Assembly (NCBI GenBank): GCA_025963965.1 | Contig: JAOPZS010000134.1 | Span: forward strand, 35,450 to 99,449 | Direction of reading: 5' to 3' | DNA from: Solirubrobacterales bacterium | Lineage (GTDB): Bacteria > Actinomycetota > Thermoleophilia > Solirubrobacterales > Solirubrobacteraceae | DNA length: 64,000 nt | Shown here: positions 17,141-55,160 of the stretch, one piece after another | How positions within the stretch are numbered: position 1 is the stretch's first letter | How the letters are laid out: each line of letters begins with the position of its first letter | The notes under the pieces: model-generated | What the model was told of the DNA's origin: nothing | The model's database searches: none | The model's input: the letters and a program-made list of their open reading frames with translations, nothing else | Made by a program: the position numbers and the translations under genes

Positions 17141-18670
17141 GTGCTCGGCTACCTCAGGCGCCTGGTGACGACGGGCGCGGCCTACCAGTTCGGGGACATC
17201 CTGGCGAAGGCGCTGGCGCTGCTGACGCTGCCGCTGTACACGCACCACCTGAGCCCGGACGCGTACGGGGCGGCGGAATCGCTGCTGACGGCGGTGATCC
17301 TCTCGAGCATCCTCGTGCGGGTCGGAGTCGGCGAGGCGTTCATCCGTTTTTATTTTGATGACGAGGACGTGCAGCGGCGTGATCGGATCGCACGCACGGC
17401 GACGGCCACGGTCGCGTGGACGACGACGCTCGCCGCCCTCGCCGCGCTGGCGTTCGCCGGACCGCTCTCGAAGCTGATCCTCGGCTTCCGCGACGCGCTG
17501 CTGTTCGACTGCGCGGTGCTCGGCCTGTGGGCCTTCACGAACCTCGAGATGGCCTACGGGCAGCTGCGCGTCGACGAACGGGCACGGACCTACATCTACG
17601 CCTCGGCGGCGAACGTGCTGCTGACGATCGCCTTCACGGTGACGCTCGTCGTGTTCGCCGGGCAGGGCGCGCGAGGGCTGCTGCTCGGCAACTTCGGCGC
17701 TTCGACGGTCGTCGTGCTCGCCCTCTGGTGGGTGCTGCGCCGGCGCGTCTCGCTGCGCGTGCGCAGGGCCGACCTGAGCGCGATGCTGATCTTCGGGCTG
17801 CCCACTGTCCCTGCCGACGCGAGCGTCTACGCGCTGCAGGTCGCCGATCGCTTCTACCTGTTCCGGTCCTACTCGCACGCCGCGGCGGGGCTCTACGCCG
17901 TGGCGATCAAGCTGGCGACGGTCGTCTTCGTCGCGGTGCGCGGGTTTCAGTACGCGTGGCCGCCGCTGGCGTACTCGATCGAGGACGACGAGGAGGCCGG
18001 GCGGCTCTACTCGATCGTGACGACCTACTACGCGCTGGCGACGGGTGTCGTCGTCTGCGCCGTCACGCTGCTCGGGCGCTGGCTCGTGTCGCTGCTGGCC
18101 GCTCACCGCTACTTCGACGCGCACCGCGCGCTTCCATGGCTGGCCCTCGGGTGGGCGCTGTACGGGCTGTACCTCGTGTTCGTTGCGATCTCCGGTCGTG
18201 CGCGGGTGACGACCCGCAACCTGCCTGCGGCGGCCGTGGGCCTCATCGTCAACATCGTGCTGCTGGTCCTGCTCGTGCCCTCGAGCGGCGCCGGGCTCGG
18301 CATCGCCGGCGCCGGCGTGGCGCTGTGCGGCGCCTACGCGGCGATGCTGGCGGTCATGTACGTGCTCACGCGCGGTCTGTTCCAGGTCGGCTTCCAGTGG
18401 CTTCGCCTGGCGAAGCTCGTTGTGATCCTCGCCGGCGTCGCCGTCTCGGGAGAGCTGCTGCTCCCCGATCACGGGCTGCTCGGCCTGCTGGCGCGCACCG
18501 CGTGGCTCGCGCTGGTGCCGCTCGGCCTGCTCGGGACGCGCTTCTTCGCCGAGAACGAGCGCCGGCAGGTCCGGCGCCTGATCGCCGACGGGCGCCGCCG
18601 CGTGGCCGCCTTCCGCGCCTCCCACGGAGAGGTCGAGGCCTATGCCGAGGATCCCCTGCGGGACCTCTGA
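17141..18670 (+). CDS. Polysaccharide flippase (Wzx/MOP superfamily)
   Basis: 509 residues from GTG 17141. The N-terminus (LRRLVTTGAAYQFGDILAKALALLTLPLYTHHLSP, in parts) is the classic start of MOP-family oligosaccharide flippases, followed by 12-14 predicted helices. It would translocate undecaprenyl-linked oligosaccharide to the outer face for the adjacent polymerase. The part of the frame before 17141 overlaps the polymerase gene and is not coding here. An acidic/basic C-terminal tail (ending AEDPLRDL) is cytoplasmic. Confidence 0.9.
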   Translation: MLGYLRRLVTTGAAYQFGDILAKALALLTLPLYTHHLSPDAYGAAESLLTAVILSSILVRVGVGEAFIRFYFDDEDVQRRDRIARTATATVAWTTTLAALAALAFAGPLSKLILGFRDALLFDCAVLGLWAFTNLEMAYGQLRVDERARTYIYASAANVLLTIAFTVTLVVFAGQGARGLLLGNFGASTVVVLALWWVLRRRVSLRVRRADLSAMLIFGLPTVPADASVYALQVADRFYLFRSYSHAAAGLYAVAIKLATVVFVAVRGFQYAWPPLAYSIEDDEEAGRLYSIVTTYYALATGVVVCAVTLLGRWLVSLLAAHRYFDAHRALPWLALGWALYGLYLVFVAISGRARVTTRNLPAAAVGLIVNIVLLVLLVPSSGAGLGIAGAGVALCGAYAAMLAVMYVLTRGLFQVGFQWLRLAKLVVILAGVAVSGELLLPDHGLLGLLARTAWLALVPLGLLGTRFFAENERRQVRRLIADGRRRVAAFRASHGEVEAYAEDPLRDL

Positions 18671-18782
18671 GCGACGCTCGGGCCGGGACGAGCCTCTTCG
18701 TGCGTCGCCGAGCCCATCTCCTGCACCGTCCAGAGGCGCTTTCGGGGCTCAAGCTGGTCTGAACGGAAACCGATCAGCCAGT

Positions 18783-19970
18783 ATGGTCGAGCTGACGACG
18801 GTGAAGCCGCGCCTGGCGGGCGCGCACGAGCGCCGCGTGCGAGCGGAGGCGCTGCGCCGCCACCGCGAGGAAGTTCGCGCCCGCGGCGCCGGCTCCGCGG
18901 GGGAGCTGTCCTACCTGCGCGCGCAGCTGCGCGTCGCGGCAAGCCTGACCACCCGCCTGGCGGCCGCTCGCGAGCCACGCGAGATGGCGTCGCAGGTCGT
19001 CGACGAGCTGCACGAGTGCTTCTCCTTCTACCTCGCGGCGATCCAGCAGCTGCACGACGACGGCACGCTGCGGCTCGTCGCGGCGCGGGGACGGCTGGCT
19101 GCCGTGATGGAGGAGTTCCTGCTGATCGAGCAGCCGGTGGCCAGCGGCGTCAACGGCCGCGTGGCGCGCTCCGGGGTGACGGCGCTCGTCGGCGACACCC
19201 GCAGCGACCCCGACTACATCGTCCGCGACCCCGGCACGGACCCGCGCTCGGAGCTGAGCGTGCCGATCGTCGTCGACGGATCGGTCTGGGGCGTGCTCAA
19301 CATCGAGGGCGCCGAGCGCGATGCCTTCGCCGAGGTCGACGTCGTGCTCGTCGAGGCGGTCGCGGCAAGTCTCGGCTCGGCGCTGCACCGCGCAAGGCTC
19401 GTGGAGGAGCTGGAGGGCGCCTTCTCGACGACGCTGGCGCTGCTGACGAGCACGGTCGAGGCGAAGGACGACTACACGGCCTCCCACGGAGAGGACGTCG
19501 CCGAGCTCGCCGAGCGCGTCGCCGTGCGGATGGCGTTGACGGAGAGCGACGCGCGCGACGTGCGGTTGGCCGCGATGCTCCACGACATCGGCAAGATCGC
19601 CGTGCCGAGCGAGATCCTGCTGAAGCCCGGCCCGCTGAACGACGAGGAGTGGGTCACGATGCGCGGCCACGCCGCGGCGGGCGGCGAGCTGGTGGCCCGG
19701 ATCGAGGCGTTCGCGCATCTCGCGCCGGCGGTGCGCGCGAGCCACGAGCGCTGGGACGGCGAGGGCTACCCGGACGGCCTGGTGCGCGAGAAGATTCCGC
19801 TGGCGGCACGCATCATCGCCGCCTGCGACACGTATGACGCGATCGTCACCGACCGGCCCTACCGGCCGGCCCGCACCGGCGGCGAGGCTCGTGAGGAGCT
19901 CGAGCGCGTCGCCGCCTCGCAGCTCGATCCGGCTGTCGTCGCGGCGCTGATCGACGAGCTGCAGGCCTAG
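18783..19970 (+). CDS. GAF-HD-GYP protein, probable c-di-GMP phosphodiesterase
   Basis: 395 residues from ATG 18783. A helical N-terminus (~70 residues) leads into a GAF domain (about 70-215), then an HD-GYP domain with HGEDVAELAERV, HDIGKIAVP, RGHAAAGGEL, SHERWDGEGYPDGL and AACDTYDAIVTDRPYR. The HD and GYP signatures are intact, so hydrolysis of cyclic di-GMP is expected, controlled by whatever the GAF domain senses. It lies inside the exopolysaccharide locus, the usual target of c-di-GMP. It converges on a glycosyltransferase gene: both genes end in the same CTAG palindrome. Confidence 0.92.
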   Translation: MVELTTVKPRLAGAHERRVRAEALRRHREEVRARGAGSAGELSYLRAQLRVAASLTTRLAAAREPREMASQVVDELHECFSFYLAAIQQLHDDGTLRLVAARGRLAAVMEEFLLIEQPVASGVNGRVARSGVTALVGDTRSDPDYIVRDPGTDPRSELSVPIVVDGSVWGVLNIEGAERDAFAEVDVVLVEAVAASLGSALHRARLVEELEGAFSTTLALLTSTVEAKDDYTASHGEDVAELAERVAVRMALTESDARDVRLAAMLHDIGKIAVPSEILLKPGPLNDEEWVTMRGHAAAGGELVARIEAFAHLAPAVRASHERWDGEGYPDGLVREKIPLAARIIAACDTYDAIVTDRPYRPARTGGEAREELERVAASQLDPAVVAALIDELQA

Positions 19971-54402: not shown

Positions 54403-54912
54403 TCACCAGCTGCCCGTTTCTCCCTGCGAGCAGCTCTTCACGTTTTTCGGGCTCCGGCAACTACGCCCGACTTCGCCCGCGGTGTTCCTGCTGAGCGTCA
54501 GTTCGGTGCCGTCGGTCGCCTTCGCCGTGACCGAGTATTCGCGGGGCGAATGCGTGGTCGTCGTGACGTAGGCGTGGCTTTCGCTTTTTTCGATCGCGAT
54601 TGCCGGCTCGATCCTGTTCAGTTCCGTCGTCGTGACGCTTTCGTACGAGCCGTCGTTCTCGGCACCGATCGCCTCGGCCGTGACCTGCGCCCCGTGGAGG
54701 AGCTCCTTCGCCGAGACGTCCTTGGCCTTCGCGCTCTGCGAGAGGAACTGCGGGATCGCGATCGCGCACAGCGCGCCGATCATCAGGCAGACGACGAGCA
54801 GCTCGATCAGCGAGTACCCGTCCTGTGCCCTCTCGCGTGGAGGCAGCCCCGGCGTGGATCCAGCGCCCTGCTCGTCTTCAACCCCTGCGTCGTGCAGCCT
54901 TGCAGTCAACAA
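54403..54912 (-). CDS. Type IV pilin-like prepilin
   Basis: 169 residues from TTG 54912, with GGGAGGG 6 nt upstream (TTG 54909 is adjacent). A long ~32-residue leader ends in AQDG, followed by the prepilin motif YSLIELLVVCLMIGALCAIAIP: cleavage after Gly, Glu5 of the mature protein and a hydrophobic N-terminal helix. The remaining domain (AENDGSYESVTTTELNRI, ESHAYVTTTTHSPREYSV in parts) is typical of major pilins and pseudopilins, with two Cys near the C-terminus that could form a disulfide loop. No assembly genes are in the window. A GEMM-like riboswitch lies in the leader, so expression is probably c-di-GMP-controlled. Confidence 0.88.
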   Translation of the reverse strand: MLTARLHDAGVEDEQGAGSTPGLPPRERAQDGYSLIELLVVCLMIGALCAIAIPQFLSQSAKAKDVSAKELLHGAQVTAEAIGAENDGSYESVTTTELNRIEPAIAIEKSESHAYVTTTTHSPREYSVTAKATDGTELTLSRNTAGEVGRSCRSPKNVKSCSQGETGSW

Positions 54913-54917
54913 CTCGA

Positions 54918-55010
54918 ACCCTCCCTGGCGGTTACCTGGCGGTCGAGCTGTCTCTGGGGCGAGACCTCTGACTTTGCGCCCCCGTCTCGCGACGGGTTTG
55001 CCCTTTGCAG
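54918..55010 (-). promoter_or_regulatory. Cyclic di-GMP-I (GEMM) riboswitch candidate upstream of pilin
   Basis: Minus-strand RNA reads AAAGGGCAAACC, then a 6-bp hairpin CCCGUC-GCGA-GACGGG (GNRA tetraloop, 54981-54996), then GGCGCAAAGUC, a second arm with a GUCUC/GAGAC hairpin, and CCAGGUAACC before the ribosome-binding site. This follows the GEMM-I order: GGGCAAACC, GNRA-capped hairpin, GGGACGCAAAGCC, second hairpin, GGUNACC closing strand. The 3' end abuts the GGGAGGG Shine-Dalgarno, so ligand binding could control translation or termination. Confidence 0.78.
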
Positions 55011-55034
55011 TTTCTTTTCGGTGGTGTGATGCCG

Positions 55035-55062
55035 AGTGTACGGACGCTCTCAACGACCGCAA
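55035..55062 (-). promoter_or_regulatory. Probable promoter of the riboswitch-pilin transcript
   Basis: On the minus strand TTGCGG (55057-55062), 16-bp spacer, TACACT (55035-55040). The predicted start lies ~20 nt before the conserved riboswitch core. Confidence 0.45.
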
Positions 55063-55160
55063 CCAAACTCGACGTATGTACTAGAGGCTCCGGGCGGTCT
55101 CTCCCGTGCGCCCCCATCAGAAGGTCGGCGCCTGCGGCGATTGCCGCCCCCGGTTCGGGG

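Follow-up and report, generated by a model that had tools for sequence, protein, structure and literature searches.

A c-di-GMP-I-GGC riboswitch aptamer ahead of a type IV pilin gene in Solirubrobacteraceae, and the pairing of its family with WhiG-type promoters

We analyzed a stretch of 64,000 nucleotides from a Solirubrobacterales bacterium (GenBank assembly GCA_025963965.1, contig JAOPZS010000134.1, positions 35,450 to 99,449; hereafter the window), part of a 3.03 Mb draft genome labelled G000. The leader of a type IV pilin gene in this window carries what is, as surely as sequence allows, a member of the c-di-GMP-I-GGC riboswitch family (RF03167), and the element almost certainly senses cyclic di-GMP (c-di-GMP). 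Scanning the whole window with cmscan, we obtained an RF03167 match at positions 55011 to 54934 of the minus strand (E 3.5e-13) that spans the full model (1-80/80) and, at 65.3 bits, exceeds the gathering score of 59; RF01051 (c-di-GMP-I) also matches the same site, with 56.1 bits against a gathering score of 35. An earlier sequence-only reading of this DNA had proposed a c-di-GMP riboswitch in the pilin leader, and the score above threshold bears it out. The GEMM-I elements listed by that reading are real, including a first hairpin with a GNRA cap (GCGA), but its terminal GGUAACC lies only partly within the aptamer, which stops at 54934; the conserved 3' element consists of GCC and the P1 strand CAGGU. 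The end of the aptamer lies very close to the start of the Shine-Dalgarno sequence at 54925, and the gap between aptamer and start codon is 21 bases.

The fold of the aptamer is strongly supported by covariation. We aligned pilin-linked aptamers from 21 places (Solirubrobacteraceae, Acidimicrobiaceae, Thermoleophilaceae and one Frankiales genome), from which RNAalifold recovers the P1-P2-P3 fold; compensatory changes occur in 12 of its 19 pairs, and 94% of the cells are paired. The covariation score is 0.473, versus at most 0.104 with slid partners, and none of 500 shuffles was as good; covariation in orthologous leaders had been set as a check by the sequence-only reading. The position of the element is conserved as well. 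A pilin search of the genus yielded one orthologue group with five members (the window and loci L236-L239), all five with the aptamer directly upstream of the pilin gene, and the other pilins of the genus have none there. In two further leaders, L070 (G112:C105) and L089 (G106:C61), we observed a pilin-type riboswitch with the competing helix described below and no recognizable pilin downstream; these are possibly orphan leaders left after gene loss.

That the downstream gene encodes a type IV pilin, as also claimed earlier, is indicated by a cleavage site for prepilin peptidase and, behind it, a hydrophobic helix carrying E5 (QDG/YSLIELLVV, the slash marking cleavage), by roughly 50% identity to the orthologous pilins of related genomes, and by a PF07963 (N_methyl) match with E 0.0014 and 18.5 bits, slightly under the Pfam cut-off of 21.2. 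The open reading frame start at TTG 55062 is mechanical and was rejected; TTG 54912, six bases past the ribosome-binding site, fits instead. The genome also encodes a type IV pilus assembly protein (PF00482). The generic promoter scan did not pick up the TTGCGG-N16-TACACT promoter at 55062-55035 (Table 1), a form shared by related leaders (TTGACT-N16-TACACT in L237, TTGACA-N16-TACACT in L070). Upstream of the pilin promoter, TAGTACATACGTCCA or near variants of it occur in L236, L238, L239 and L089, and a shorter GTCCA in L237 and L070. The GTCCA core was also seen before other riboswitch genes (L002, L012, L029, L036), where it is perhaps an activator site.

Table 1. Coordinates of the pilin gene, its leader and related features in the window
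Feature	Position	Strand	Evidence
c-di-GMP-I-GGC riboswitch aptamer	54934..55011	-	RF03167, RF01051, covariation in alignment A1
P3 3' strand GACAGCUCGA, proposed switching strand	54943..54952	-	10-bp complement to 54917-54908
UCGAGUUGUU, start-codon region, putative partner of the switching strand	54908..54917	-	complementarity, folding, shuffles
Ribosome-binding site GGGAGGG	54919..54925	-	sequence; GGGAGG or GGAGGG at the same place in orthologues
Type IV prepilin gene	54403..54912	-	start TTG 54912, long leader peptide, QDG/YSLIEL cleavage site
Sigma-70-type promoter TTGCGG-N16-TACACT	55035..55062	-	direct reading; related leaders share the form
Box TAGTACATACGTCGA upstream of the promoter, possible activator site	55069..55083	-	kept in orthologous leaders
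GAF-HD-GYP protein, putative c-di-GMP phosphodiesterase	18582..19967	+	PF13487 E 7.2e-36, PF13185 E 3.1e-17

We suggest that the element is probably a translational ON switch, through which high c-di-GMP would raise pilin and thereby act on the pili. The direction of switching, likely but unproven, is the weakest step of this mechanism. The pilin mRNA is predicted to start about 17 bases upstream of the aptamer, and c-di-GMP would be bound at the junction of P1, P2 and P3 via three conserved bases (G, A and C). In the ligand-free state, P3 would release its 3' strand to pair with the start-codon region (in the orthologues, with the Shine-Dalgarno region), so that ribosomes would be blocked from starting; with c-di-GMP bound, P3 and P1 would remain closed, the start would be free and pilin would be made. 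The proposal builds on a competing helix that needs P3 to be open, and ligand binding should thus free the start. In the window this helix, formed by GACAGCUCGA and UCGAGUUGUU, comprises 10 base pairs, is equalled in only 0.2-0.6% of shuffles (P 0.006 by score), and is part of the unconstrained minimum-energy fold of the leader. In the four orthologous leaders, GAUAGCUC or GAUAGCCC pairs with (G)GGCUAUC, with shuffle P values of 0.003 in L237, 0.0075 in L238 and 0.02 in L239, and the orthologous pilin leaders come out on top when 95 riboswitches of the family are scanned for a competing helix. The window helix has been kept though both of its strands diverged, including one U-A to C-G change. 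In the free ensemble the helix is strong in three of the five leaders and partial in one. Enforcing the aptamer raises the modelled openness of the start codon in the window from 0.01 to 0.44, a gain confined to the start codon.

Several results weigh against this ON switch. The helix is not significant in L236 (P 0.11), and the orthologous leaders share ancestry, so that their helices are not independent. In the energy model, forcing the aptamer costs 9-16 kcal/mol relative to the free ensemble; switching must therefore draw on cotranscriptional folding or on tertiary or ligand energy outside the model. The modelled openness of the Shine-Dalgarno sequence in the window goes from 0.48 to 0.46 when the aptamer is enforced, and class-I riboswitches tested in Clostridioides difficile are OFF switches (PMC6200980). 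These last two points, together with the nearness of the aptamer end to the Shine-Dalgarno start, would suit an OFF switch, in which the ligand-bound form beside the ribosome-binding site hinders ribosome loading and pilin falls, an outcome that would match the sign of the RsiG-WhiG control of pili discussed below. We regard this as the less likely direction: the closed aptamer showed no base pairing with the Shine-Dalgarno region, and the translation-blocking helix forms in the open state only and recurs in the orthologues. Control might also be exerted at the level of transcription, for instance through Rho-dependent termination or through the stability of the RNA, and translation would then follow. 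In many pilin leaders of other genera the start codon lies 70-100 bases past the aptamer, leaving room for another platform; the window leader has only its short gap, no intrinsic terminator was found on its coding (minus) strand, and the competing helix extends to the start codon, all of which make transcriptional control here unlikely.

The identity of the ligand is less in doubt. The c-di-GMP contact residues of the Vibrio cholerae aptamer Vc2 are G20, A47 and C92 (PMC4744006). The corresponding columns of our alignment (11, 38 and 97) are invariant in all 21 pilin-linked aptamers. We placed them by the invariant first two P2 pairs and a 27-base spacing, relying in part on the Vc2 structure. 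Aptamers for cyclic GMP-AMP (cGAMP) have an A at the position equivalent to G20, whereas the window and all 21 pilin-linked aptamers have G there, which points to c-di-GMP rather than cGAMP; a single key pocket change has been described (PMC9481103). It is thus very improbable that the element senses another dinucleotide, 3',3'-cGAMP, in the manner of the GEMM-Ib aptamers ahead of Geobacter pil genes, even if these have a nearly identical fold and likewise control pili (PMC9262584). Still further from credible is that the sequence resembles an aptamer by chance or as a functionless relic: L070 and L089 do retain the leader with no recognized pilin, but the E-value of the RF03167 match, the retention of the aptamer in every orthologue and the strong covariation all argue against it. 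As for the source of the signal, the sequence-only reading had tied pilin synthesis to the second messenger that it expected the HD-GYP protein of the window to degrade. The gene is indeed present, but the link is loose: no single partner enzyme can be named, given the distance of about 35 kb and the 17 GGDEF domains of the genome.

More surprising than the pilin element itself is what precedes riboswitches of this family elsewhere. Many pilin leaders have a match to the sigma-28/WhiG promoter (TAAA, GCCGATAA) just upstream of the aptamer. To quantify this across Actinomycetota we took 74 aptamers (among L270-L349), picked by score and irrespective of the downstream gene, and counted matches of 10/12 or better. 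A WhiG-type promoter stands directly ahead of 38 of these c-di-GMP-I-GGC riboswitches (51%), compared with 0.6% when the upstream DNA was shuffled and 0.9% when the motifs were permuted, and with none of 28 thiamine pyrophosphate (TPP) riboswitches of the same phylum (Fisher P 1.3e-7). A GFTL-type pilin lies downstream of 17 sampled aptamers, 12 of which have the promoter. No pairing of a WhiG promoter with a c-di-GMP riboswitch was seen in the open-access papers found, which were assessed on titles, abstracts and term counts. Riboswitches preceded by a WhiG-type promoter were also seen in L078, L121, L124, L203 and others. The core string of the aptamer is shared by Thiobacillus and Hydrogenophilales (L124, L129, L139, L222, L223), and in L124 it has a perfect sigma-28 promoter upstream, so that the pairing may extend beyond Actinomycetota.

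In Rubrobacter, RsiG together with c-di-GMP holds WhiG inactive, and WhiG is believed to drive the type IV pilus genes (PMC8325347); c-di-GMP would therefore act twice on riboswitch transcripts from WhiG promoters. The genome of the window encodes both a sigma factor of the FliA/WhiG type (284 bits) and an RsiG of the single-motif kind (PF22802, 68.9 bits), which has PDB matches to Rubrobacter RsiG chains. The same genome has WhiG-type sites next to pilins on contig C117. A WhiG promoter (TAAA-N14-16-GCCGATAA) for the window pilin was rejected, the best match being 9/12 and its placement losing P1; no WhiG-type site of 10/12 or better occurs anywhere in the window, and the genus of this pilin uses the TTG...TACACT form. 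The double gate is thus a property of relatives, and in the genus of the window the WhiG and riboswitch inputs appear to be split between different pilins. We put forward, as an idea with about even prospects, that in Actinomycetota c-di-GMP gates the same pilin or surface-protein transcripts twice, through RsiG-WhiG at initiation and through the leader riboswitch, while the genus of the window divides these inputs between a pilin cluster with WhiG promoters and an extra pilin with a sigma-70-type promoter and riboswitch. If the riboswitch is ON, such a double gate would be an incoherent band-pass that allows expression at intermediate c-di-GMP levels only; an OFF riboswitch would make it a doubled repressor. 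Split inputs could swap the pilin type as c-di-GMP rises.

RF03167 matches with E 0.001 or better were found in 90 of 146 genomes of the family and in 157 of 397 genomes of the phylum. In Solirubrobacteraceae, nearly all copies other than those ahead of pilins precede, mostly by ~5-85 bases, the start of a protein whose N terminus resembles an export signal; the pilin is one of a c-di-GMP-sensing set of exported proteins. The 63 downstream proteins scanned for domains include CAP (10), putative glycosyl hydrolases (GHL15; 9), beta-helix (4) and subtilase (3). There are three copies in the genome of the window. The second (L002, G000:C78:9285-12363) precedes an exported protein of 230-237 amino acids with no Pfam match. 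An HD-GYP gene is oriented divergently to this copy and was ruled out as its target since the riboswitch is on the opposite strand; an RsiG gene lies on the same contig. The third (L003, G000:C66:42823-45899) precedes a large exported protein, also with no Pfam match, and its Shine-Dalgarno sequence directly abuts P1, a platform unlike that of the pilin. Elsewhere we noted a pair of pilin genes with one riboswitch apiece (L056), adjacent aptamers separated by ~90 bases (L069), duplicated units of riboswitch and gene (L046) and ten copies within one genome (G114). A riboswitch-like string ahead of a pilin in L241 was discarded, being unsupported by the covariance model.

The riboswitch family is known, and its wiring to a pilin in Actinomycetota looks new. 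RF03167 shares clan CL00126 with RF01051 (GEMM-I, e.g., Vc2), and the window copy agrees in its full-length match, fold and contact bases; what sets it apart within the family is its place ahead of a Solirubrobacteraceae pilin gene. The literature searched contained no RF03167 member from Actinomycetota that had been tested by experiment, and in the literature found c-di-GMP control of pili in this phylum is described solely via the RsiG-WhiG sigma switch. A type IV pilin transcript that senses c-di-GMP directly, if true, would let this soil bacterium couple a surface fibre to the signal to attach or roam. The pairing with WhiG promoters supplies a two-input logic of surface attachment that can be put to the test; the soil actinobacteria concerned are abundant and mostly uncultured, and Solirubrobacter and Rubrobacter are cultured relatives. 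One close counterpart is Cdi-2-4 of C. difficile pilA1 (PMC6200980), a c-di-GMP riboswitch that likewise sits immediately upstream of a type IV pilin. Its ON behaviour has been shown, whereas that of the window switch is only predicted, and it is a class II RNA of unrelated fold that acts by transcription read-through. The GEMM-Ib riboswitch of Geobacter metallireducens pilM (PMC9262584) has the GEMM fold before a pilus gene and is an ON switch with mutually exclusive aptamer and platform, as proposed here; unlike the window element, it binds cGAMP, uses a terminator and controls pilM rather than a pilin. Finally, RsiG-(c-di-GMP)-WhiG of Rubrobacter (PMC8325347) likewise places actinobacterial pili under c-di-GMP, with both proteins encoded in the genome of the window, but it acts on the sigma factor, and that paper says nothing of riboswitches.
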